Source of the DNA: a virus
DNA: 64,000 bases
Virus record (IMG/VR): IMGVR_UViG_3300027851_001140
Coordinates: 1-64,000 of that record
Reading direction: 5' to 3' (one strand)
The notes under the pieces are model-generated. The model saw only the letters and a program-made list of their open reading frames with translations. It was not told the origin of the DNA and did no database searches. Positions 25,255-52,548 of the stretch are shown in pieces (the stretch's first letter is position 1; each line of letters opens with the position of its first letter). The position numbers and the translations under genes are program-made.

Positions 25255-25731
25255 CTATAGTTGGATAAACACTTCGTAAACAAATCTATCCGTTGGGGTC
25301 TTGAATCTCAAAGGAAAATTAGCAATCGCAAAAAGAAACTGAGTACCTATTTCCGGATCTCCTGGAATGGGTGAGTAAACCACGGTTCCCAGTAGACACA
25401 AAGAACTTACAGCTCCTGTAGCTTCTCCAGGCTCGACTGATGCAGTGAACACAGGGCAAGAAAAGCTAGCAAAGCTCACAGCGTCTATCGTGTCAACAAG
25501 AGAACACCCCCCAGCAACAGTAATAGACTCAGCAGAGGCGCCTAAGGGACCACAGTAACAACCTGTGCGAGCAGGATCCGGGGTAATTGCAAGAGTGGGG
25601 TCTACAGCGTCATGTCCGTTGGCGCCCACAACAAAAGTATCGACAACAAAGCTCTTCCCAGTAGCCAGCATGTCGGCAATTCGAGCTTTACCTTGGTTCG
25701 TAACTATAGCGAGAGCTTCAATAGCGGGCAT
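25255..25731 (-). CDS. Tail-periphery protein, paralogue of 13123-13692
   Basis: A 158-residue protein. The start (LAIVTNQGKARIADMLATGKSFVVDTFVVGANGHD) resembles the N-terminal domain of collar-type fibre proteins, where a helix with KxxIA is followed by VGxxG. The end (TQFLFAIANFPLRFKT) matches the 189-residue protein at 13123. Cysteines cluster in the middle (C61, C63 and others). The 80-base gap upstream (25732-25811) holds no gene. A role joining a fibre to the baseplate is inferred. Confidence 0.6.
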   Translation of the reverse strand: MPAIEALAIVTNQGKARIADMLATGKSFVVDTFVVGANGHDAVDPTLAITPDPARTGCYCGPLGASAESITVAGGCSLVDTIDAVSFASFSCPVFTASVEPGEATGAVSSLCLLGTVVYSPIPGDPEIGTQFLFAIANFPLRFKTPTDRFVYEVFIQL

Positions 25732-25811: not shown

Positions 25812-27299
25812 TTAGGGCAATACAGTCAAGCTAGAAAATGAGCTTGTGGAAATAGGAACCGACACACCCAGTAAAGAAGACACAGCAAGAGTAGCTTGTG
25901 GTCTAGAGAAGCAGCAGTCCAGGTCTTCGAACAAAGATACTTCAGGAATGGTTGAATCTAAGCAGGATCCGCCATCAAATCTATCAACCAAAGGAAGGCC
26001 GTACCACCCATCACCCAAGGGGTCGGAGTCCTCCCTAGAATCTAGAGGAAGTCCGCTATCGAAAGGTATACTACCTTCGTACCTTACACTTACAGATCTT
26101 CCAGGATTTCCAGAGGGAATTACCAGTCTCTGGGTACCTGGAACAAAAGTAGCGGATAGAAGAGCGCCTCCCAAAGGGTCTATGACTGTAACCGATACTA
26201 TTCTTTCAGGCGGGTTAGACAACTCAGCATAGGCTGCTCCCACAATTCCAGTTTCTGCTCCAGTGATATCTATCAAAAATGAAGCAGGAGACAAAACTTC
26301 GGAAAAAAGAGAAGAGCTGTCTAACCTAAGACGCCCCAGAGCCAACTCCGACACTACGTCAAACGGATATCGCCAAGCACAAAAAGCAATCTCTGATTCT
26401 ATAGTTAGGGCAACAGAGACTACAATAGGAAAACAGTCCTGCGTGAGAAGGTCTATGATAGAACAAGAACCTCCGTCAAAATCAAAAAGATGAGATTCAG
26501 GGCGACCTAAGAAATTAAGACGAACTAACTCGTCGCTGACTGAGGTAAGTTCAGCAATGGACGGGTCCAGATTGTCCATAAGCTTGATAAAGGCAGCCCA
26601 GCTTCCTACGCACAGGTTTGGAGTCCAAACATGAAACGCAAATCCGCCTTCATCGTGGGCTGTAGAGAACAAATCACGAACCGAGGGCTCAAAAAACTCT
26701 AAGTCTACTGTTGTCGGCCTTACAACAGGAGTGGTGTTAGAAGCAGCAGTAACAATGTCGTCCACTCCACGAGTAGACGGACTTTCGTTAATTAGACTCC
26801 TTACAGCCAACTTTCCTGCCAAGACTCTCATGGCACGTGTGGGTGGGAGGAGAGATTGGAAGCCTATCTGGTGCTCTGTTGCCCGAAGAGACAGATCACT
26901 GTTCAGCTGGTTTCTTGCATCTTGAAAGTTTATGTCTATGCTATAGAAGTAATCCTCAGAATATCCTCGAATTAGGGTCGCATAGTTAGTGGCTACCACC
27001 AATAACAAAAAGCTTTCAGAGGTAGAACGTACCTGAATGAAGTTCTTTCCTGGAAGTAATCTGATAAAAATCTGGACAGAGGGAGAAGATAAAACTACTG
27101 TGCGAAGTAGCTTGTCATTCAAAAACACCTGAACAACGTCTCCCACATCTCCTTCCAACAAAAATGGTGTGTCGGAGGAAAAGGGAAGGGGCAACACCAC
27201 AGGTCCTGTATGCCACTGTATTCCTTCTGGAATACTAGCTATCAACTCCTGATATAGGGTCTCATAAGGCTGAGTGTTCGGTGTAATACGTAGAGTCAT
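25812..27299 (-). CDS. Baseplate or tail protein in gpI-like position
   Basis: A 495-residue protein. The first 110 residues look Ig-like (beta-rich, PFSSDTPFLLEGDVGDVVQVFLN). The segment FDFDGGSCSIIDLLTQDCFPIV and a later RFDGGSCLDSTIPEVSLFED ... CCF look like two copies of a short Cys motif. Residues 125-260 are mixed and include FAFHVWTPNLCVG. It follows the baseplate W, J and Dps-like genes in transcription order. In many contractile-tailed phages the next baseplate gene is gpI, so a similar job is possible; the sequence alone does not show it. It overlaps the upstream gene by one base. Confidence 0.55.
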   Translation of the reverse strand: MTLRITPNTQPYETLYQELIASIPEGIQWHTGPVVLPLPFSSDTPFLLEGDVGDVVQVFLNDKLLRTVVLSSPSVQIFIRLLPGKNFIQVRSTSESFLLLVVATNYATLIRGYSEDYFYSIDINFQDARNQLNSDLSLRATEHQIGFQSLLPPTRAMRVLAGKLAVRSLINESPSTRGVDDIVTAASNTTPVVRPTTVDLEFFEPSVRDLFSTAHDEGGFAFHVWTPNLCVGSWAAFIKLMDNLDPSIAELTSVSDELVRLNFLGRPESHLFDFDGGSCSIIDLLTQDCFPIVVSVALTIESEIAFCAWRYPFDVVSELALGRLRLDSSSLFSEVLSPASFLIDITGAETGIVGAAYAELSNPPERIVSVTVIDPLGGALLSATFVPGTQRLVIPSGNPGRSVSVRYEGSIPFDSGLPLDSREDSDPLGDGWYGLPLVDRFDGGSCLDSTIPEVSLFEDLDCCFSRPQATLAVSSLLGVSVPISTSSFSSLTVLP

Positions 27300-27835
27300 C
27301 AGTAACTAAAGAAATGGGGAGGAAACATTGGAACTGGACCGGGTGGAGAAGAGGGAACAGCAGCAGAACTCTGGCTCCTTCGTTCCAAGAAGAACACCAA
27401 TATCTCTATTTCGTTGGCAGTGGTAGCAAGTAAGTCTTCCAGACCCAATGTCAGCATTCCTTCTTTCTTTAACGAGGAAGAGAGACGACGAAACTTACGC
27501 GACAAAGAAAGGAGTTCCTGATAGAAGAATAAGGATGTGCTATCGGCGCTTAGAAGAGCCTCTTTTAGAGGCGGACCCAGAGTCTTCATCCTAGAATACA
27601 CATACTTAGCCTGTTGCAATGGGTCTACGTACTTTTCGTCATCAAATTGAGCCATCGCAGTGAGGCGTTCAGCTAATGGGTCAAGAAGGTCAGACAACTT
27701 CTCATAAATTTGACCATACAAGGTGTGGTCGCTGTAACTGGTGGGACCAAACACCCTCCAGTGCGCTGTTTGAGAGGCTATGGACCAGAATCTAAGCTCC
27801 CACACCAAATTAGACAATTTTTGTATACAAGACAT
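27299..27835 (-). CDS. Dps/ferritin-like protein with ferroxidase motif
   Basis: A 178-residue helical protein. Residues 20-62 match the Dps signature: H25 and H37 twelve apart, then D52 and E56, in the order HWRVFGPTSYSDH ... LLDPLAERL. In E. coli Dps the corresponding di-iron ligands are H51, H63, D78 and E82, with the same spacing. Dps proteins oxidise iron and protect DNA. A second long helix (residues 95-150) would complete the four-helix bundle, and the C-terminus is Pro-rich. It lies inside the baseplate operon, so it may have been recruited as a virion protein or act on iron or oxidants in the cell. The domain call is good; the role is open. Confidence 0.65.
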   Translation of the reverse strand: MSCIQKLSNLVWELRFWSIASQTAHWRVFGPTSYSDHTLYGQIYEKLSDLLDPLAERLTAMAQFDDEKYVDPLQQAKYVYSRMKTLGPPLKEALLSADSTSLFFYQELLSLSRKFRRLSSSLKKEGMLTLGLEDLLATTANEIEILVFFLERRSQSSAAVPSSPPGPVPMFPPHFFSY

Positions 27836-27841
27836 GAGATA

Positions 27842-28120
27842 TCACCGTGGTACTGAACGAGGAGGAATAACATTTTGACGAGAAGTGAACCCCGAAGGAG
27901 AAGATTTTCCAGTCCCTTTGTCTAGGTCAGACACGTCCTTAATATAATGACCGGGTCCTCTGCCATGATCTCCTCCTGAAAGTCCACCTGGAGGACCAGA
28001 CCAACGGTCTTCCTCAGGAAGAGCCCCATCATGCGGAAAAAGACTGAGTCCAGGACCAGGATACTGTTTAGAATCTGAGACACGGTCTATTGAATTAAAG
28101 TCCAGAAATCTATGGCTCAT
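27842..28120 (-). CDS. Small Gly/Pro-rich protein, function unknown
   Basis: A 92-residue, low-complexity protein rich in Gly, Pro, Ser, Asp and Arg, with no regular secondary structure visible (DRWSGPPGGLSGGDHGRGPG). It overlaps the baseplate J-like gene upstream by four bases (ATGA), and the next gene follows after six bases, which supports it being translated. It may be a flexible linker or assembly factor of the baseplate. No family recognised. Confidence 0.5.
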   Translation of the reverse strand: MSHRFLDFNSIDRVSDSKQYPGPGLSLFPHDGALPEEDRWSGPPGGLSGGDHGRGPGHYIKDVSDLDKGTGKSSPSGFTSRQNVIPPRSVPR

Positions 28121-29517
28121 CTTCTTACCTCCACAGTTATTAGTGAATCTGAGGTCTGTGGGTATTCAAAGGGTCTAAATTCTATGGTTTCGACAGGGAT
28201 AGTTCCCGTTAAGTCGCGAGTAAATTCCAGTATTGATATGTTGGAGACTCCTGCGACGTCGGAAGATAGTCGAGATCTTAGGTCATTGGCGAATAAAATA
28301 CCAACGAATTCTTCACGATTAACGAAAGAACTAATAGTAGAAAAGGCGGCAGCGGTTGCATCTGTTTCATCAAAGGAAGACAATATTTGAATTAGTACCC
28401 TAACTCTTATAGGAATTGGGATTGCCTTCCTTATCAGAATGTCAGACCGGTAGAGTTCTACCCCGATTCTATTTACGTAGTCTTGCGTATCTCTTACCAG
28501 CTTGTCGTAAACGTAAGTTATAGTCACACTTTCGTTTACCCCTGGAATTACGTCAAGTTCCACCCTATCATTGGCTTGAGTAGAACTTCTGTATTGAAAA
28601 GTTGTGTCGGGTAAAAATCTAAATCCTGTTGAAACATTTCCAATTCTTGTGGATATAACCTCTACGACAGGAGCAAGCGGAAGTGAAAATGTTCTCTGAG
28701 AGGCATTTCCCACATAGGTTACTTCGGCAGTTTCAGTGGTGGAGCCTATTAGGTAAATATCCCAAGAAGACCTACGAGTACGCCTGCGGAAATTATCTGT
28801 GTCAGAACTGAATATCATCTGCACATCATTGATGGAAGAAGTGTCAAATTGACGTATAAGCTGAGAGAGTCCGTCTCCTGACCCAAGGGCAAGTCCGTTA
28901 AACTTAGCGCGAATTCTGGCTCCAAATCTAGATATGCTCTCAAATTCGGTGCTTCCAGAGATTCTTTCTCTATTGACTACTCCGTCTATTCCTTCCACAT
29001 TTGTCTGAATTCTAGAGATCCTATTGGGTGGTACCTCGAATAAACTACCTGCCCCTAGAGCTTCAACGGGGGCTCTAACTTCATAGCGCCGAGTGGAGGC
29101 GTTAAAAAAAGACCCAAGACTGGACCCTAGTATGAAAGCATCTCGAAGAGTCCTAAAGGATATACTGGGATCCGATGTGGAGACTACGGTTCCAGCAGGA
29201 ATAACCAGTACCTCGTCAGAAGAAGGAGGGGAAAACGTGAAAAAGGTTACATTTCCACGTGCGGCTCTTCCCTGGGATCTCCTAAGTCCATGGTTGGCAC
29301 CATACAGCTGCAGAACCTCTACATTTTGGGATAGAACATAGTCGAGACTGAATCTTCTAGATAGGTCGTCGTATAAAAGCTCAACAGCCCTAAGCTGCGC
29401 TGCTTGGGGTCTAATGAAGAGATCGAAGATAGGACCCTTCAACGTGTCAATGGAAGGGTCCTGATTTTCTATCGAATCAGCTAAGGACTGTTCTATCTGT
29501 CTAAGAGTTCTGGCCAT
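28117..29517 (-). CDS. Baseplate J-like protein
   Basis: A 466-residue protein. The N-terminal helix and the section EVRAPVEALGAGSLFEVPPNRISRIQTNVEGIDGVVNRERISGSTEFESISRFGARI-type region (about residues 145-200) show the baseplate J/gp47 pattern, in which beta-rich domains 'G..N.p...I...........V.N....sGg.D.Es...fR.R' occur. An earlier segment VLVIPAGTVVSTSDP is also typical. In Mu, P2 and T4 (gp6) relatives this protein forms the wedge ring of the baseplate. The gene is flanked by a W/gp25-like gene (29517) with a one-base overlap, as expected. Confident family call. Confidence 0.85.
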   Translation of the reverse strand: MARTLRQIEQSLADSIENQDPSIDTLKGPIFDLFIRPQAAQLRAVELLYDDLSRRFSLDYVLSQNVEVLQLYGANHGLRRSQGRAARGNVTFFTFSPPSSDEVLVIPAGTVVSTSDPSISFRTLRDAFILGSSLGSFFNASTRRYEVRAPVEALGAGSLFEVPPNRISRIQTNVEGIDGVVNRERISGSTEFESISRFGARIRAKFNGLALGSGDGLSQLIRQFDTSSINDVQMIFSSDTDNFRRRTRRSSWDIYLIGSTTETAEVTYVGNASQRTFSLPLAPVVEVISTRIGNVSTGFRFLPDTTFQYRSSTQANDRVELDVIPGVNESVTITYVYDKLVRDTQDYVNRIGVELYRSDILIRKAIPIPIRVRVLIQILSSFDETDATAAAFSTISSFVNREEFVGILFANDLRSRLSSDVAGVSNISILEFTRDLTGTIPVETIEFRPFEYPQTSDSLITVEVRR

Positions 29518-30014
29518 CAGATACCAATGTCATCAGTAATAGCAGATCCTGGAAGATTTGGTTTGGATCCGGGAAGAAATTGATGACGAAGCTGAACTAA
29601 GAAACTGGTAGGAACCACGTCAGGTCCGTCAAATGGAGTCACATCGACATAGAATATGTAACCAGTCCTGGAAAACTGTACTACTCGGATAGTTCCTATG
29701 GATTCTATCGCCTCGAAAGAAGTAAGCTGATCCAGGCGCGTATTTTGTAATTCTTGTAGTCTCTCTATTGCCTCTCGCACCAATGTCTTGATGTATCCTC
29801 GACCGACTAGACCGATTGGACCCGATCTGGACTGAGAATTTATAGTTTCTATGTTAGCGAGCTGAGACCCGTAACTACGTTCTGGGTCGTATTCGGTCAT
29901 GAGCGCATCGGCTACGTCTTGACTGAGCTTATGTATTCCTTCTATGAGAATCGGACGACCATTACTATCGTCAAAAACTATGTCTCCGTCTCTCTTTTTT
30001 AGAGTTCTAGCCAT
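29517..30014 (-). CDS. Baseplate wedge protein, gp25/W-like
   Basis: A 165-residue protein. DIVFDDSNGRPILIEGIHKLSQDVADALMTEYDPERSYGSQLANIET has the form seen in gp25-like proteins, where a first strand pair is followed by 'Q.I...L.t..Ge....p.yG..L.....', and IKTLVREAIERLQELQ with GTIRVVQFSRTGYIFYVDVTP fits the second half. T4 gp25 is the small wedge subunit that clamps the sheath. It lies next to the J-like gene, as in Mu and P2. The call is by motif order and context. There is no evidence that lysozyme activity exists. Confidence 0.75.
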   Translation of the reverse strand: MARTLKKRDGDIVFDDSNGRPILIEGIHKLSQDVADALMTEYDPERSYGSQLANIETINSQSRSGPIGLVGRGYIKTLVREAIERLQELQNTRLDQLTSFEAIESIGTIRVVQFSRTGYIFYVDVTPFDGPDVVPTSFLVQLRHQFLPGSKPNLPGSAITDDIGI

Positions 30015-33468: not shown

Positions 33469-34610
33469 TATTCAACAAATACCTTAGTACTAAGAACGTT
33501 GGTAAATCGTACTTCAACGTCAGAGGTAAGAAACGCAGCGGGCCCAGTAGAGGTAAGTACCCTTGCATCTCTGAGCCATTGCCTCATTTCCTCTCCTCGC
33601 ATAGCGGGTTCTGTGGCCTCGGCTCCATGTTTTATCTTGGTTCCTTCAATCTCTACTGTTTGCTCTGCGTCAAGAAGGAAATTTCTACTTACATTGTGTA
33701 TCTCGTCTCTTCCAACGGAAATCTTAACGTCTGACTTTTTCACGTCCAAACTAAATCCGTAAGAGGAGTTGTCGGGAAGAATGACGCTCACATTACCTTC
33801 TACGTCCACTTCCACAGAAGTTTCTTCGAGTCTAACTGTTCCATACTTGGATAGACTTCTAAGCTTCTTTCCAGTAACAGAAGACGTAGCCTCCTGTCCC
33901 TCATCGTCTACTACATGACCTTCCCTATGGTCTACAAGAGTATATGGGGGCGCCTTACTTTCTAAGGTTCGTAGGTATTCTTTAGCAAAAACCTCATCTC
34001 CTCCTTCAGGAGTGACTCTGATCCACTGGTCCTGGGTTTGGTCTGTTTCAGTTTTACGTTTCACCACCCCAAAACGAATCTCGCTGGATATCTCTGAAAT
34101 GTTGTTGTCGAGCGTTCTATGAATTATTGTTGGAGCCTTAACATTTGCCTCCAATCTAGGAACGTCTAGGGTGTACTGCATGGGTCCACCCCGCAGAGAT
34201 AGAGTACCATCTTGACTAAAATGGGCAGAGGCCAGGCCCTTTGACGTTATATCAATTTCCCCCTCAAGAAGTCTTCGGTAATAGAACCTATTCTCTGCGT
34301 ACGTAGCTCTAATTTGAAGACTAGCTATGGATTCGGCCATGTAAGCAGAAGCAAATGTTTCTCCAGAATCCACTCGACTATCTAAAATCATACGAGTGGC
34401 GCGCTCAGGCATTACCCTTATCCAGGAAGATGGACCAAGGTAAGGATGTGTTATAGGGGCACTTCGACCGGCGCGAGGTCCGGAGTAGATAAACGTGTCC
34501 TCTTCTGGATTGATAGAGGTGATCACAGCTCCGTAGGGGCGAACAGCATACTGCTCATCCCCCGAAAAGTGCCTCTTAGCGTCACGTAATGTTCTTCCAA
34601 TGGCACTCAT
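33468..34610 (-). CDS. Baseplate spike-like protein
   Basis: A 380-residue protein. The N-terminus VRPYGAVITSINPEEDTFIYSG resembles the opening of OB-fold domains of central-spike proteins. The middle is beta-rich with many charged strands (VSVILPDNSSYGFSLDVKKSDVKISVG), which fits a beta-helix needle. The C-terminus EATEPAMRGEEMRQWLRDARVLTSTGPA recalls the end of spike proteins (for example the P2 gpV region, 'a.EpvvlGd.l...l'). It is followed four bases later by the hub gene. Piercing of the host envelope is the likely job. The call is by motif order and context. Confidence 0.55.
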   Translation of the reverse strand: MSAIGRTLRDAKRHFSGDEQYAVRPYGAVITSINPEEDTFIYSGPRAGRSAPITHPYLGPSSWIRVMPERATRMILDSRVDSGETFASAYMAESIASLQIRATYAENRFYYRRLLEGEIDITSKGLASAHFSQDGTLSLRGGPMQYTLDVPRLEANVKAPTIIHRTLDNNISEISSEIRFGVVKRKTETDQTQDQWIRVTPEGGDEVFAKEYLRTLESKAPPYTLVDHREGHVVDDEGQEATSSVTGKKLRSLSKYGTVRLEETSVEVDVEGNVSVILPDNSSYGFSLDVKKSDVKISVGRDEIHNVSRNFLLDAEQTVEIEGTKIKHGAEATEPAMRGEEMRQWLRDARVLTSTGPAAFLTSDVEVRFTNVLSTKVFVE

Positions 34611-37600
34611 GTCGACCTTCTCCGTGCGTCCTCTGCGGTCTCTCGCGTAAGTCGTCTACGATTTGTTATAGGCTCTCCTGCCTGGCGCTCGGAGGATCCT
34701 TCATACCTCTCAGGCGGGCACTCGTTTGGAGGAACAGAATCCGCAAACAAAGCCACCTGCTGATCCCGTACCGTAGCGTACGCTGTAATAGCCCTCTGTC
34801 TGCGCTCATTTATGGCAAGAGCCCTTTGTCTATCAGCTTCCAGATTTCGCCTTCTCTGAGCGGTGGCATCAGGTGGTATCTCAGGGACAGGCTCTGGAAC
34901 AAACCTGGTGGGCTCTGCAGCCAATCGCAAGGCAGGAATACCCTTTAATCCAAAACCACTGTAGTAGTCTTCTAGAGAAATTACATCGCTATCGGGTCCT
35001 GGTCTTCCTACAGTTTCTGCCTGAGAAAACGGCAAACTGTTAGGAATAGGGTTGTAGAAAAGAACATGACGTGAAACGAACCCCAATGAACCATCTCTAC
35101 GCCGCAAGAAAGATAGATTGAATCTTTCCACCAGCTCAGGGTCCCACCGTTGAAGAATATTTGTGCTAGAATCTCCAACTCCCGACACGACTCGAATACT
35201 TCCTTGAATACGAAGGGCCTCTACTGCCGTGAGTAAGGATAGATTAGAAGTTCTACGATTTACGATCGTAAATCTCTTGCCGTCACCCACATAGTTTTGA
35301 AAAGTAGGGGATCCGCTTATAGCCCCAGTCTCAAAATGAAGATGAGTAAGAGTACTGCGGTCTTCTGTTCCAGAAAATCCTACACGAGCAATGGGTTGAT
35401 TTCTCTTAACGGTCGCTCCTACGTCAACTCCAGATTCTAGTGAATTAAGATGACGATAGAACGTGACGAATCCGTCAGCATGAATAAGTCCAAGAGACAT
35501 ACCCTGTCCAGGGAGGCCGTCTCTAGCAACAGAAGGACGTACGTAAAAAACTATTCCGTCTGAAACTGCGTACACGAGTTCGTCGAGGTCCATGGGGATG
35601 TCCACCCCAGGATGCCAACTTCCGTTTCTCAGACCAAAGCCAGAGGTGACTATGCGAGGAAATTCCCCAGCAAACTGCCAGGTTCCTACCCCACGATCAA
35701 TAATATCTTGGTCAGGAATCTGGCCACGAGCGTAAGCATCAAGCAAAGAACTTCTCTCGCTGGAACGAAGAGATCTCTTCCATGCGGCCCACCTTGGTAC
35801 CACACGAGGAGCGGGCCCCGCAGGAGAACTATAAAACCTAGGGTCTCCCGGAAAGCAAGTAACTTCTTCCTCCGCAGGAGATACCTCTGGCGGCTCGTAC
35901 TCCTCACTCGGAGAATACGTAGAGCGAACTCCAGTAGTACCTAACCTTGGACGGGCACCGCCAGACGCGAACTCTGCTCCGGCATTAACATTCCTAGACC
36001 GTAAATCGTCCAATATAGACTGAGAACGTTCGGTAAGATCTCGAAGTCGCTGCTGCCTTTCCTCAGGAGTTAGCGCACCTGCACTTCTAGTGAGTTCATC
36101 TATCTCGGCTTGAAGCTGCCTAAATTCTGTAACTATGGGGTCGTCTTCTCCTTCAGCACGGTCTACAGGTCCCAAAAAGGCAGCGTTAATGACATTGTAT
36201 GTGGATTGGCCACTAGGTATGATGGCCCTGTACCTATCCCTGAGAGAGGAAAACTGTTCTTGAGTAAGGGAATCGTTGTCAGTTGATATAGTAGTAAGGG
36301 CGGCCTTAAAATCCTGTACGCGACGTTGAAGAGACTGAACTAACGACAATACTCCGTCCTGAGGTTGAGCAAAATACATGGGGTTGGCTGGACCCCCAGT
36401 TATGTACCTTGGTATCCCTAACTCATCGTAACTTCTGCTGTAGTTGAGAGTTACGTTCATAGATGGCGGCTGTTGTCCTGCGATGGCGCCCGCAGTAACA
36501 GGGAGAGTCCACGAAATTCCGTCTATGAGAGCTAGCCTCTCTCTATAGCGGTTGAACACTGGTCTGTTTAGAGTGAGCCATGGCCTAAACACCAACCCAA
36601 TCTGATACTTGTCAGCAGAAGACAGCAGCTTTTGAAACTCTAACGTAGCCAACTGCTCAAGCCTAGCCAAGTCAGTGATTTGTGAATAATTTAGGACCTT
36701 TATTCTCAGACCAAGCCTAGAGGCCAAACTGGGAGACCACACGCCAAGAGATCTTCCAGGATTAAGAGGAATAATTCCTCCCTCGTTTATGTTGGTAAGA
36801 CCGACGTAAGACCCGTTGGCTACTACTCCAGTAACAATCTCTCCTCCCTCTTCATCGAAGGAAGAATTTAGCAAATGATGGTCTAACGTGAAAACTTCTG
36901 ACCAGGTCCCATAATCGGAAGGGTCGAAGTCGTACTGGGCAAACTCAAATATTAGGTCGCCACACCCAGACACCCAAAATCTATAGTCGGCAGTCTCACA
37001 GGCGTCGGCCAACATCTGAAGTCTGTTGGTCCAGTTCAAGTTTTGAGCAACAGGCTGGTCCGCTATGAGCGTACGATCCCATAAGGAATCACTAGGAGTG
37101 GTCGGACCAGGGGTAAGAAAATGCACTCCTTGAGCTTCGGGATGCCAGGCAGCTTCTCGTCTAGTAAACCTTCCTGCAGTCCTTACTTCATTTTCCGTCC
37201 AATAACGTCTATTTCTAGGAGAATAGTCAGGAGCAGCGTCGGTTACAGCAAGACTTTGCCGTGGAGAAAAGTTAAACCTAGCGGGAGTCCCAAAAAGACA
37301 CAGATTATGCCATCCTTGCATACGTCGCCGGATAGATCTCGATGTTTCAGCTCTATTTCCATTTATAGACGGAAAATAGGCCTCATCAGCGTAAGACCGA
37401 GGAGGGTCTCCCGGAAGGGAGCCTTGCCACGGAAAAACCCCAGGGCGCATTCTTCCCACACGTCCAGACCCTACATTGATAGCCACGCGTCGTTGAGGTC
37501 TGGAGGGGTTGGACGTGGATCCTGCGTCCGCCCCAGGAGGAGGAACGGGATCAGAAGGTATTTGGGCCTCATCAATCTCACTGAGACTGGTGTCTACTAA

Positions 37601-39022
37601 ATCTCCAGATTCGTTTATGGAAGAAGGATCTAGGCCGAAGCCAGACAAATCTGACAATAATCGTCTATATTGTGTCAGTTCTTCAGAAGAAAGTACTCCC
37701 TCTCCTCCTTGTCTAACACGAGACAACAACGGACTAAGCTCGGCAGCTACTGCACGAGCTTCATCTGCGGCCGTAGACCTAGAAGAGGATAGGTTTCTAA
37801 TGGCTCTGGCATCAGCATCTGACTGGAATCCAGGAGGAAGATCCCGAAAAAATGTTAGCGAAGCTACCATTTCGGGTAGGTTGTAGGAAGACCATGGATT
37901 AGTAAAAGTGCTACCTCTGACAAGATCACTGAAGAATCCGTCATTGAACTCCTGGTTAACTGCCTCAGAGTCAAAGGACCTGAATACGTCAATCCCGGAC
38001 AAGGTCAAGTTATTTGTGGGGTCTGCTGACCCTGATGTCTGGCTACTAGGAAGTACTGCCAACATTGTGTTGGAGTTTACACGCATCTGTGCCATCAGAT
38101 GGCGTATGTCAGCACAAGATACCTGCACAGTGTTGAGCCCGTTGATGTAGTCTTCTGTAGTAGGTTTTGAAATGATGAACCCAGTAAAAACTGGTATCCA
38201 CTCATCCAACTCAGAAGAGGGGTTATGAATCCACACCCTAACTGCATCATTTCGGTGAAATATAGACCCCCACAAATGAAGCGGAAAGCGTCTTCCTCCC
38301 GACATTGGGTCTATGGGGTTTCTTCCTATGTCTTTCTTAGACTCGAAGAGTTCTGCCTTTATAGACTCATCGTAGTCAAAAGAATTACCTTGACCACGAG
38401 GAGAGGACCTTCGGAATATTCCTCTAAGATTCTCAGGGGTGATAGTGAACCGGTGACCTGCGTTGTCTAACGTAAAGTCACACTTATTAAAGTCTGCGCC
38501 AGCGCCATAAGACACAGATATAGTTCCGGTAAGAAACGGACTTACATCTTGACCTTCGATGTACACAATAGCATCATGGTAATATACTTGGTGAGTCTGT
38601 TCCTTAAAGAAGTGAGGAGCAGACCCTCCTCTGCGCACAGGGGCCGCTTCTCGACTTGCGGTAGGGGTAGACTGGCTTCTACGAGGGTCAGCAGGCTCCT
38701 GTGGCCTGATAGCCGCTCCTCCTGTTCCTGCGGAATCCCTACTTCTACGAGGGTCAGGAGATCTTCCATCCGGATCCTCTTCTGAGGAGGAGGCAGAAAG
38801 AATGGAAGAGGCATCTCGTTGAGCACGTTCTCTGTCTTGTCGTGGAGTACGTCCGGAAGCAGTAGGAGTGGAGTCTAGGGAGGGAGGAGGACTAGGCACT
38901 CCCTCTTGTGGGTCACCTGGAACTTGTTCTATTAGTTCTGGACGACGTAAAAGTGCCTCTCCCGGTTCTGGAAGAAGTCGTCCCATGGCTCCGCTTATTA
39001 CTCTAGTTCTGTTTCCGGCCAT
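34607..39022 (-). CDS. Baseplate hub protein with M23 peptidase domain
   Basis: A 1471-residue protein. Residues 1-130 are a low-complexity charged region. Residues 140-300 match a hub N-domain (VYYHDAIVYIEGQDVSPFLTG ... WIPVFTGFI), related to T4 gp27-like or gpD-type hubs. Near residues 1120-1240 lies an M23/LytM peptidase: HPGVDIP gives the first zinc pair (H and D), FYRHLNS and HLHFE the later histidines. Such domains cleave peptidoglycan cross-links. The last 150 residues are charged. A hub with an attached M23 domain would open the cell wall during injection. It overlaps the spike-like gene by four bases. Confidence 0.8.
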   Translation of the reverse strand: MAGNRTRVISGAMGRLLPEPGEALLRRPELIEQVPGDPQEGVPSPPPSLDSTPTASGRTPRQDRERAQRDASSILSASSSEEDPDGRSPDPRRSRDSAGTGGAAIRPQEPADPRRSQSTPTASREAAPVRRGGSAPHFFKEQTHQVYYHDAIVYIEGQDVSPFLTGTISVSYGAGADFNKCDFTLDNAGHRFTITPENLRGIFRRSSPRGQGNSFDYDESIKAELFESKKDIGRNPIDPMSGGRRFPLHLWGSIFHRNDAVRVWIHNPSSELDEWIPVFTGFIISKPTTEDYINGLNTVQVSCADIRHLMAQMRVNSNTMLAVLPSSQTSGSADPTNNLTLSGIDVFRSFDSEAVNQEFNDGFFSDLVRGSTFTNPWSSYNLPEMVASLTFFRDLPPGFQSDADARAIRNLSSSRSTAADEARAVAAELSPLLSRVRQGGEGVLSSEELTQYRRLLSDLSGFGLDPSSINESGDLVDTSLSEIDEAQIPSDPVPPPGADAGSTSNPSRPQRRVAINVGSGRVGRMRPGVFPWQGSLPGDPPRSYADEAYFPSINGNRAETSRSIRRRMQGWHNLCLFGTPARFNFSPRQSLAVTDAAPDYSPRNRRYWTENEVRTAGRFTRREAAWHPEAQGVHFLTPGPTTPSDSLWDRTLIADQPVAQNLNWTNRLQMLADACETADYRFWVSGCGDLIFEFAQYDFDPSDYGTWSEVFTLDHHLLNSSFDEEGGEIVTGVVANGSYVGLTNINEGGIIPLNPGRSLGVWSPSLASRLGLRIKVLNYSQITDLARLEQLATLEFQKLLSSADKYQIGLVFRPWLTLNRPVFNRYRERLALIDGISWTLPVTAGAIAGQQPPSMNVTLNYSRSYDELGIPRYITGGPANPMYFAQPQDGVLSLVQSLQRRVQDFKAALTTISTDNDSLTQEQFSSLRDRYRAIIPSGQSTYNVINAAFLGPVDRAEGEDDPIVTEFRQLQAEIDELTRSAGALTPEERQQRLRDLTERSQSILDDLRSRNVNAGAEFASGGARPRLGTTGVRSTYSPSEEYEPPEVSPAEEEVTCFPGDPRFYSSPAGPAPRVVPRWAAWKRSLRSSERSSLLDAYARGQIPDQDIIDRGVGTWQFAGEFPRIVTSGFGLRNGSWHPGVDIPMDLDELVYAVSDGIVFYVRPSVARDGLPGQGMSLGLIHADGFVTFYRHLNSLESGVDVGATVKRNQPIARVGFSGTEDRSTLTHLHFETGAISGSPTFQNYVGDGKRFTIVNRRTSNLSLLTAVEALRIQGSIRVVSGVGDSSTNILQRWDPELVERFNLSFLRRRDGSLGFVSRHVLFYNPIPNSLPFSQAETVGRPGPDSDVISLEDYYSGFGLKGIPALRLAAEPTRFVPEPVPEIPPDATAQRRRNLEADRQRALAINERRQRAITAYATVRDQQVALFADSVPPNECPPERYEGSSERQAGEPITNRRRLTRETAEDARRRST

Positions 39023-49560: not shown

Positions 49561-52488
49561 TCAAGTCTTTTGATCAACCAAGTCTACTACTTCGCACACT
49601 CCTCCTGCGCAGGCTAAGGTCTGACTGCCAGCAGTCATGTCGTACGTTTCGTAGTTTCTCAAAGAAGACCAATCTACATCCGTAGGAAGATCAGCAGATA
49701 GTTTTAGATAAGTGTCTTCGTCTATCTCCTCGTAAGGAGCTTGCCTATACACGTGGTCTGAATGTGGAAGAAAAGATATACCAGAAATTGAGTCTAGGTT
49801 GTTCCAAACCCAAGAGCCTACTTCGAGAAACTCAGAATCTTTGTAGTACACAGTAATAGAAGGCTTGTGCTCGCACCAGTAATCTTGATAAATTTTCCAC
49901 AACTTAAGCTGACTAAGAGCCGCTACGGCACTAGTAGTGACGGAGGTTTCTGGTGCACGTATCGGAAAAGAGAACACCCATACGTTTGGGTTCATCAAGT
50001 CTTCTTCGCACGGAAATCCCCACATTTGCATCATGCTTGCCAGAGGGTCTTTCTTATCGCACCTAACCCTTCTAACGTAGAACTTAGAAAACCTTGGATG
50101 AATTCCGCTCGCAGAATCTACCAACTGACTCACGGTGCCGCTGGGCTTTACACAAGTAATGGCTGTACTTTGGCTTATTTTTAGTTTTCCTGACCACTCC
50201 TTGTTAACGTCTATAGCCTTCTGACGCATTTGAGTAAGCCAAGAGGAAAGGTCGGACGAATCAGGATCTCCAAGTATGGGGTGGTCCATTATGCCAGTGA
50301 GAGAAACGCCTAGAAGCCTTTCTTCTTCTGTATTCTTCTTCCAGATGGGTCTGAGATACCTAAAGTTTGTAACAGTAGACTGCAGCGTCCCCAAAATAGT
50401 GGCGGCTTCCACCTTTAGAAGCAAGTCGGCTAACGTGTCAGAAGGTCTGACAACAACCTCAGACAAGTTGCAAAACTGATAGGGCCTAAGGATAATTTCA
50501 CTACAAGGATTTGTACCAAAATCGTAGTCTGAATCGCGGCGACCATTTTTGGCTACTTGATTTTTACTGGCAGCCCGGCTGAATATGCCCCTCTCTCCCG
50601 ACTTAGACTCGTATAAACTAAGCCATTCGTTTAGAAATACCTGGTAGTCAGGTCTTTCTGTGTAAGAAGCGGAATTATTGGCTAACTGCCTGTGGGGATA
50701 TTCTACCCACCATTGGCCACTTTTAGCTAAACGCATTCTATCATCAGATAAGTTTGAGAGACTGATCAGAGCAGATCTTCGAACTCCTCCCACTACCACA
50801 ATGTCAGCAATCTTACACACTAGATCATGACATTCTAAGGAAGAAAGCTTCCTTCCTGCTGCTTTCTTGAAAAGCGCTACGCAAAACTTAAATAAACTTT
50901 CAAGTGGAGCAGGTCCGGATGCGCGTCCTCCAAACGTCTTGAGGCGAGCCCCTGCAGGTCGTATCTTAGATAGGTCCCACCGAGGAATAGTACCTGAGTA
51001 CAAAAGACTGATAAGTTGGCGAAGGGAAGAGGCCCACCCTATTTTAGAGTCTGCAACAGATATAACAGTATCAACCTCATAAAAGGTGTCCGCCACATCG
51101 GGCAATTTACTGACATACTGTCTTTCTACAGAGAACCCTACGCCAGTGCCACACATCAGTATGTACATCAGCTCGTCAAAAGATCTGACGTGATCTATGG
51201 GTAGGTAGGAACAGTTTCCTGTTACCAAGCCCATATCCAGTACAAAAGTATTTGTGTCAGGGACCTCGGCACAAAAAACCTCGGACAAGGTAGTTTCACC
51301 AGAGAATCCGGTGAATACATAGTGAGATTCCAGAGGCTTAAAGTTCTTTCTCTTACGATCTATCAAAAAATCGTCTGAACACATAGAAGAACGACTGAAG
51401 GACAAGCACCATAATTTCTTTGTGCGCTTACCAAAGTTGGTGTCTTCTGGATATTCGTACTTAGATTGAACAACGTACCCTAAACGAGAGGCTACTCTAT
51501 TAACCCAGGAAATCTCATTCGACCCAACGGCAAGACTTACTTGACTACTTGCACTTACTGTACCGTCTGCTGCAAGCCAGCCGCGCATGAATCCGAGCAA
51601 GTACTGATCGGTCTCGTTCTCCGATGGGAGTTCTTTAAGTTCATGTGTCTTAGCGAAAGATCCATACATCATCACTACGGGGTCTCCTCCGTAAGAAGGA
51701 GGATAAGATACAGGGTACTCAGAGAACCAAGGAAGAGTGTCCTCTTTGTCAGAGCAAATACGTATGTGATACCCCTTAAGCCTCTCCTGAGCATACGTAG
51801 CAGTTCCATCCCCATAAATAAACCCGTGCTGTACGCCAAGCCTGTAGTCCAAGGAGTCCGGGTCAGGCTTTGGACCCGCTACGAACTTGATGCGATCTCC
51901 GGGCTGGAGCTTCTCTGTTGGGACTACAGTACCATCGACAAGAACCCAACGGTGATTAAGAGTGCACCTAACTTCCTTACGAGTATTGGAGTTTAGTCGG
52001 AAGTTTGCCTGAACAACGGGTTGTTCGCCGTAAGACTTAAATGTGGCACGTACCCAGCGACCCTCTACGTTCAAAACTGTGCAGGAAGATCCAGAGAGAG
52101 TACTTATGGGCACAAGGCCGTGCTCATAAGTAAGAACAAGGGTGTCACCTGACACTGGGTTGTACCCAGCAACCGAATCCTTTGTGAGTGCCTTTCCTGC
52201 CGTCATTAGAGCGCGCATGGAAGGCATGGATTTCAGATTTATGATATAGTCTCTCAAAAATCTCCTAGTCTCTTCATATTCAGAGCTAGAAGTAGAGGAA
52301 GACAACAAAACTTCGTCAAAAAAACTAAGGTACCTGTCTACTGTCTCATCCCAAGTCTCTCGTCTCTCCTCTGCTTCTATCCATCGAGAATAGCGAGACA
52401 AATGAATGAACTGTGAGTACAGTGGAGTAGACGTGTTCTTATAAAAGGAATCATGGGTGCTTAAGAAAGAGGTACCAGGTTCAGTCAT
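49561..52488 (-). CDS. Class II (B12-dependent) ribonucleotide reductase interrupted by intein
   Basis: The ATG at 52488 (MTEPGTSF) is preferred because AGGAAG stands five bases upstream; the longer frame starts at 52527. The 975-residue precursor has flanking parts of a monomeric RTPR-type class II reductase: LSRYSRWIEAEERRETWDETVDR, SMPSMRALMTAGKA, then after the intein CSYLPIDHVRSFDELMYIL, CGTGVGFSVER, the active-site NPCSEI, FCNLSEV and a C-terminal CAGGVC pair. No ATP cone is seen. These carry all Cys expected from L. leichmannii RTPR (C119, C408, C419, C731, C736). It makes deoxynucleotides for phage DNA using cobalamin. The intein spans 51214-52158 and must be spliced out. Confidence 0.9.
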   Translation of the reverse strand: MTEPGTSFLSTHDSFYKNTSTPLYSQFIHLSRYSRWIEAEERRETWDETVDRYLSFFDEVLLSSSTSSSEYEETRRFLRDYIINLKSMPSMRALMTAGKALTKDSVAGYNPVSGDTLVLTYEHGLVPISTLSGSSCTVLNVEGRWVRATFKSYGEQPVVQANFRLNSNTRKEVRCTLNHRWVLVDGTVVPTEKLQPGDRIKFVAGPKPDPDSLDYRLGVQHGFIYGDGTATYAQERLKGYHIRICSDKEDTLPWFSEYPVSYPPSYGGDPVVMMYGSFAKTHELKELPSENETDQYLLGFMRGWLAADGTVSASSQVSLAVGSNEISWVNRVASRLGYVVQSKYEYPEDTNFGKRTKKLWCLSFSRSSMCSDDFLIDRKRKNFKPLESHYVFTGFSGETTLSEVFCAEVPDTNTFVLDMGLVTGNCSYLPIDHVRSFDELMYILMCGTGVGFSVERQYVSKLPDVADTFYEVDTVISVADSKIGWASSLRQLISLLYSGTIPRWDLSKIRPAGARLKTFGGRASGPAPLESLFKFCVALFKKAAGRKLSSLECHDLVCKIADIVVVGGVRRSALISLSNLSDDRMRLAKSGQWWVEYPHRQLANNSASYTERPDYQVFLNEWLSLYESKSGERGIFSRAASKNQVAKNGRRDSDYDFGTNPCSEIILRPYQFCNLSEVVVRPSDTLADLLLKVEAATILGTLQSTVTNFRYLRPIWKKNTEEERLLGVSLTGIMDHPILGDPDSSDLSSWLTQMRQKAIDVNKEWSGKLKISQSTAITCVKPSGTVSQLVDSASGIHPRFSKFYVRRVRCDKKDPLASMMQMWGFPCEEDLMNPNVWVFSFPIRAPETSVTTSAVAALSQLKLWKIYQDYWCEHKPSITVYYKDSEFLEVGSWVWNNLDSISGISFLPHSDHVYRQAPYEEIDEDTYLKLSADLPTDVDWSSLRNYETYDMTAGSQTLACAGGVCEVVDLVDQKT
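51214..52158 (-). mobile_element. Class 3-type intein with LAGLIDADG homing endonuclease
   Basis: The insert is 315 residues, from Pro (first residue PVSGDTLVL, the usual intein block A but with Pro in place of Cys or Ser) to Asn before CSYLP. Block B reads TLNHRW with Trp at intein residue 71, block F is VFCAEVPDTNTF with Cys 296, and block G is LVTGN-C with Thr 313. A missing N-terminal nucleophile together with this Trp-Cys-Thr set defines class 3 inteins, first described for the mycobacteriophage Bethlehem DnaB intein. Two LAGLIDADG-type motifs (HGFIYGDGT and RGWLAADGT) form a homing endonuclease domain. The penultimate residue is Gly, not His. Splicing is inferred. Confidence 0.8.
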
Positions 52489-52514
52489 GTTTCTTCCTAT
52501 AAAGTGTACAGACA

Positions 52515-52548
52515 CAAAAGGCAACATACCTAGTTAAAAGGTGTTGCC
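52515..52548 (-). terminator. Candidate hairpin before the reductase gene
   Basis: On the minus strand GGCAACA and TGTTGCC (52548-52542 and 52526-52520) form a 7-bp stem around a 15-base loop, followed by TTTTG. It lies in the 119-base gap between the 139-residue gene and the chosen reductase start, so it could end the upstream transcript or act as an attenuator. A TATAAACT stands further upstream at about 52575-52568 and may be a promoter -10 element. Confidence 0.4.

Follow-up and report, generated by a model that had tools for sequence, protein, structure and literature searches.

A Dps-like gene with conserved ferroxidase ligands in the baseplate operon of a lineage of uncultured phages

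The Dps-like gene and its neighbours

The stretch of DNA analysed here (the window, 64,000 nucleotides) is part of a 94.9-kb IMG/VR virus record and carries, within a baseplate operon, an open reading frame (ORF) whose product resembles Dps, a bacterial protein that normally handles iron and oxidants. This ORF begins with ATG, encodes 178 amino acids (aa) and is present in one copy per record. The genes surrounding it lie on the same strand and are listed below together with the evidence for each assignment.

25255-25731, minus strand: tail-collar-fibre-like protein, 158 aa; sub-threshold (PF12571, E 0.0042, below cut-off)
25812-27299, minus strand: 495-aa gene directly after the Dps-like gene, no recognised family; no Pfam or PHROG match, same place in relatives
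27299-27835, minus strand: Dps-like (mini-ferritin) gene; phrog_3636, PDB profile matches, AlphaFold2 model, Foldseek, synteny in six related contigs
27842-28120, minus strand: small conserved gene between J and the Dps-like gene, 92 aa, likely disordered; homologous ORFs at the same place in six related contigs
28117-29517, minus strand: baseplate J-like wedge protein, 466 aa; PF04865 (E 7.5e-12) and phrog_6, baseplate wedge (E 2.1e-23)
29517-30014, minus strand: gp25/W-like baseplate wedge protein, 165 aa; weak match (phrog_120, E 0.0017), positioned directly before J

A sequence-only reading of the window had placed the Dps-like gene between baseplate J and a tail gene. J does lie upstream, but a small ORF intervenes, and the 495-aa neighbour on the other side belongs to no recognised family. 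Judged by position, this neighbour is possibly a gpI-type tail protein, and its counterparts in relatives are 58-70% identical to it. The same reading had pointed to a one-base overlap between the Dps-like gene and its neighbour. This overlap is real in the window (TGATG). Across six relatives, however, the junction varies between -4 and +6 nt, which means that the two genes stay closely coupled while the precise overlap changes. Promoter and terminator scans of the baseplate operon gave no excess over chance. Elsewhere in the tail operon, a 1471-aa protein (34607-39022, minus strand) has a peptidase M23 domain at residues 1137-1232 and is possibly a tape measure or a wall-degrading tail protein.

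Gene order in related phages

IMG/VR searches using the Dps-like or J protein alone returned nothing usable, and relatives were found through the major capsid protein. Several longer records, among them contigs of 392, 424 and 388 kb, encode a capsid protein with 86-95% identity to it (best segment). Given this identity to contigs of 388-424 kb, the source record is most likely one piece of a jumbo-phage genome. The record also carries other recognisable genes. A class II-like (adenosylcobalamin-dependent) ribonucleotide reductase of 988 aa is encoded at 49561-52527 of the window (minus strand); its residues 305-385 resemble an endonuclease and are perhaps an insertion. The protein at L004:9476-12811 (about 73.5-76.8 kb in the record) is interrupted by an intein, with both N- and C-terminal splicing regions matched, and by eye its flanking sequence resembles a large terminase. 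Also by eye, L004:3760-4194 encodes a peptide-release-factor-like protein with a GGQ motif and L004:5323-5670 a small heat-shock (Hsp20-like) protein.

Every one of the six related contigs with a J gene has the Dps-like gene between J, past one small ORF, and the same gene of about 490 aa. These contigs represent five distinct phages, two of the contigs being near-identical, in addition to the window. Their Dps-like proteins have 63, 61, 57, 51, 50 and 45% identity to that of the window. Ranked by divergence, J and the next gene give a similar order, with the exception of L032, in which the Dps-like protein is more divergent than its neighbours. Between L030 and L031, dN of 0.008 and dS of 0.25 indicate purifying selection. 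The search for the same gene place in related phages, which the sequence-only reading had proposed as a check, therefore found it, and the six contigs support stable membership of the gene in the baseplate operon. We set aside the idea of a sporadic late 'moron' because every related contig with J carries the gene, and the scans gave it no separate promoter or terminator signal beyond chance.

The small ORF between J and the Dps-like gene is present at all seven loci, ranges from 68 to 97 aa, and had no PHROG match. It carries LDF near its start (FLDF in most) and IPPRxVPR at its end in all but L029; the window copy has FLDF and IPPRSVPR. Its stop codon overlaps the start codon of the Dps-like gene (ATGA) in L028, L030, L031 and L032. 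This small conserved gene is a new observation, and we propose that its product could be a linker or partner of the Dps-like protein.

More distant phages were informative about how this arrangement may have arisen. J homologues were identified in Rctr197k (E 3e-33), LR745208.1 (E 1e-20) and Tunturi_5 (E 1e-10), and the stretches around J in these phages had no Dps-like gene. Its absence there suggests that the gene's presence in the baseplate operon is best read as a lineage-specific insertion that was later kept. Loss from the three distant phages is a possible alternative, although it needs more steps. A DNA-pattern scan returned only this lineage and one 485-kb record with an LR745208.1-type protein, the remaining hits being chance reading frames. 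The bacterial and archaeal genome contigs scanned contained no close relative of the gene, so a recent host origin was not seen.

Predicted fold and metal site

Searches with the single sequence gave Dps matches that were weak, yet consistent. Among PHROG profiles, phrog_3636 (Dps-like) matched with an E-value of 4.9e-8, and this family matched all seven aligned lineage members (best E 2.2e-9). In the PDB, the single sequence matched Deinococcus radiodurans Dps2 (E 9e-5). The NCBIfam Dps model (NF006975) matched with an E-value of 2e-4 at 21.5 bits against a cut-off of 114, and the Pfam Ferritin model (PF00210) fell below its cut-off, although these cut-offs are detection thresholds and not structural features. 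A profile built from the lineage strengthened the PDB matches, with E-values of 2.8e-7 for D. radiodurans Dps2 and 8e-6 for HP-NAP (spanning 138 profile positions), and its PDB matches all belonged to the Dps family.

AlphaFold2 (AF2) given the seven-row alignment produced a model with pLDDT 83.7 and pTM 0.77, in which helices span residues 3-27, 33-64, 72-93, 97-125 and 132-158 in the order A-B-BC-C-D. The first, single-sequence model was weaker (pLDDT 73), with nearly identical structural matches. When the model was compared with the PDB using Foldseek, the best 50 matches were all in the Dps family, although the best E-value was a modest 1.8e-3; the top matches had TM-scores of 0.65-0.67 on the query and at most 20% identity in the structural alignment. 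No known baseplate protein was among the structural matches. The sequence-only reading had tied its Dps assignment to a four-helix bundle; the predicted bundle is present, and the AF2 model and the Foldseek matches together speak against its absence. Separately, in BFVD several uncultured Caudovirales proteins labelled 'Prohead protease' (333-763 aa) have a predicted Dps-like fold, which may hint at Dps domains tied to phage structural genes elsewhere.

The codons that would form the metal site in the window are as follows.

27761-27763, minus strand: His25, ferroxidase ligand; invariant in alignments
27758-27760, minus strand: Trp26, conserved ferroxidase-site residue; invariant in alignments
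27725-27727, minus strand: His37, ferroxidase ligand; invariant in alignments
27680-27682, minus strand: Asp52, ferroxidase ligand; invariant in alignments
27668-27670, minus strand: Glu56, ferroxidase ligand; invariant in alignments

These residues correspond to the Dps ferroxidase set of two histidines, an aspartate and a glutamate, with a tryptophan (PMC4192664). The 12-15-4 spacing of the four ligands, as described from the sequence at the outset, is present, along with Trp26; shuffling a sequence of this composition reproduced the spacing about once in 10,000 trials. All five residues are invariant among the seven lineage members, down to 45% identity. When 12 phage Dps proteins were aligned, the other 11 being 13-63% identical to the window protein, the only invariant columns were L7, L14, H25, W26, G30, H37, D52 and E56, five of these eight being at the site. 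An unrelated helical tail protein that happens to have this spacing would account for the sub-threshold Pfam Ferritin score and the only moderate single-sequence model. However, the profile matches, Foldseek results and ligand invariance all indicate Dps, and a chance spacing has a probability of about 1e-4; we regard this explanation as effectively refuted and scarcely credible. A Dps-type fold with a metal site is, in our assessment, very nearly certain.

The description of the site as a full ferroxidase motif was nevertheless overstated, since the four universal ligands are in place and the accessory fifth carboxylate is missing. The window protein has Gly at position 41, equivalent to Asp67 of E. 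coli and Glu41 of HP-NAP, and the lineage reads G, G, K, G, K and R there, whereas five of six outside phage Dps proteins have D or E (S-SRM01 has G). In E. coli, Asp67 is part of a lower-affinity iron site (PMC9140674). The second iron site may therefore be weakened by G, K or R at this position, while the two histidines and partner glutamate of the higher-affinity site are retained. Both the residue at position 41 and the sub-threshold Pfam Ferritin score count against the favoured reading set out below. The fifth carboxylate is variable in Dps and not strictly defining, and D. radiodurans Dps2 carries Gln at the aligned position although it is an accepted Dps, so absence of the carboxylate is no bar to Dps membership.

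His37 and Asp52 are 15 residues apart on helix B of the model (33-64), which implies that one metal site needs two subunits. Homology and helix geometry together imply that the predicted ligands would meet across a two-fold dimer interface. Hence, the protein should form a dimer at minimum, with iron bound between the subunits. Outside the site, a comparison of the acidic three-fold pore placed E/D133 and D134 opposite Asp126-Asp127, the acidic pair of HP-NAP, and the other acidic layer lacks clear conservation. In the model, the B-C segment is a helix about 22 residues long, and V70, Q75, Y78 and R82 are invariant in this region. The window protein has a proline-rich C-terminal tail, and the length of this tail varies. 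A lysine-rich tail is absent and the pI is 4.9-6.3, making DNA binding via a basic tail unlikely.

The longer B-C segment could be a docking surface, and this raises the question of whether the protein is purely structural. In that case, the four-helix Dps dimer would have been recruited as a baseplate block or assembly factor, its metal site acting as a structural staple with no useful ferroxidase turnover. The fixed baseplate synteny, the absent fifth carboxylate and the conserved small neighbour gene are also in line with such a role. We consider it improbable because the catalytic set is invariant: four universal ligands plus Trp26 exceed what a scaffold alone needs. The structural matches, moreover, are without any known baseplate protein.

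Possible roles and comparison with known systems

Phage Dps is usually read as a helper of the infected cell. The main rival to a baseplate role follows this view: the protein would be a free, late-expressed Dps that assembles into the usual dodecameric shell inside the infected cell. Late in infection this shell would take up Fe(II) and peroxide and thereby spare phage DNA and virion proteins. Its place in the baseplate operon would then serve only the timing and level of production. The missing fifth ligand and the location of other phages' Dps genes outside tail modules make this a serious rival, and we hold it to be quite possible, if short of probable. Its universal ferroxidase ligands are intact, phage Dps genes are common outside tail modules, and those of Gratiaviridae (PMC8008677) and of Lactobacillus phages (PMC6669764) have a proposed antioxidant role. 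The nearest homologue, in LR745208.1, is also away from J. Several observations fit a free Dps poorly. The place between J and the next tail-operon gene is strictly fixed down to 45% Dps identity, the site-B carboxylate is missing throughout the lineage, whereas most of the other phage Dps proteins compared retain it, the lysine-rich tail is absent with a pI of 4.9-6.3, and a small conserved gene is tied to Dps.

We favour work at the baseplate because the gene has a fixed position, is coupled to its neighbours and diverges along with them, because its product lacks the accessory ligand, and because a small gene is tied to it. On this reading, the protein is a true Dps-type ferroxidase, coupled to the baseplate genes and most likely working in or on the tail baseplate, a combination that we judge to be evenly balanced between right and wrong. 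Half-sites on helices A and B would pair His25 and His37 of one subunit with Asp52 and Glu56 of its two-fold partner, and the paired half-sites would bind and oxidise Fe(II). The protein would be made together with the baseplate wedge and would be bound in or on the baseplate, whether as a dimer or as a small shell, and its metal site might either hold iron or remove iron and peroxide. Association with the virion or baseplate, taken by itself, we rate as even or marginally better. Three points count against it: gene order is no proof of virion location, the LR745208.1 Dps has the full motif at about 215 kb from J, and the other phage Dps genes examined are among metabolic or non-baseplate genes. 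The roles offered by the sequence-only reading, namely a structural piece, an iron source or sink, or protection against host oxidants at entry, stay candidates among which gene order does not discriminate. What the data show directly is the sequence, the predicted fold, the conserved ligands and the fixed synteny; the oligomeric state (dimer or dodecamer), the iron chemistry, late expression and baseplate association are inferred from these.

A bolder version can be drawn from the same observations. A working mini-ferritin might be built into the jumbo-phage baseplate, possibly docked via the small neighbour protein, such that each virion would deliver bound iron, or an enzyme that consumes peroxide, to the cell surface on entry. 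This version is speculative and we think it rather unlikely. More broadly, the results suggest that this group of uncultured giant phages makes, and perhaps wears on the tail tip, a Dps-type mini-ferritin. A Dps locked into the baseplate genes, with invariant ligands and its own neighbour gene, would be evidence for ferritin-type iron chemistry in virion assembly or in the virion.

Phage Dps is already known, with genes documented in Gratiaviridae (PMC8008677) and Lactobacillus phages (PMC6669764). In the open-access literature searched, we found no report of Dps or ferritin in a baseplate or virion, nor of a baseplate operon with a fixed Dps gene; the matches read were instead to Dps genes elsewhere in phage genomes, to host Dps or to texts in which the letters DPs mean something else. 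The window protein shares its predicted four-helix bundle and B-C helix with the Dps mini-ferritins HP-NAP, Listeria innocua Dps and D. radiodurans Dps2. With HP-NAP it shares His25, Trp26, His37, Asp52 and Glu56 at HP-NAP numbering, and its E133-D134 aligns with the Asp126-Asp127 pore pair. It differs from these proteins in being phage-borne within a baseplate operon and in lacking both the position-41 carboxylate and a lysine-rich tail. The B-C helix has 7 residues in HP-NAP (PMC4192664) versus about 22 in the window model.

Among phages, the Dps proteins of Cronobacter GAP52, Aeromonas LAh_8, Synechococcus S-SRM01, Lactobacillus LP65 and Bacillus phage G (gp346) have the same four ligands, and the closer ones belong to the same PHROG family (phrog_3636). 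Their settings are different. The GAP52 and LAh_8 genes lie near anaerobic ribonucleotide reductase rather than baseplate genes, that of phage G is near thioredoxin reductase, and the other annotated phage Dps genes examined are near further non-baseplate genes, with most retaining the fifth carboxylate. The closest outside homologue is in LR745208.1, a huge phage of 485 kb, at about 27% identity over 88% of the query (the L029 protein). It has all four ligands and the helix-D motif G-[LM]-[ED]-D-x-L, but has Glu at position 41 and lies about 215 kb from its own baseplate J, near GroEL-like and tail-fibre-like genes. In that phage (L035:3835-6698), the Dps-like gene is followed by one opposite-strand ORF and then a GroEL-like chaperonin (phrog_5725, E 5e-82).

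The idea of iron carried on a phage tail has a precedent in the tail fibres of T4, in which gp37 binds iron at HxH sites, and in the Ferrojan Horse hypothesis (PMC11705849). The likeness lies in this idea, whereas the chemistry differs, as gp37 uses octahedral HxH fibre sites and not a ferritin-like ferroxidase centre. A baseplate Dps would give the Ferrojan Horse idea a concrete, testable protein.
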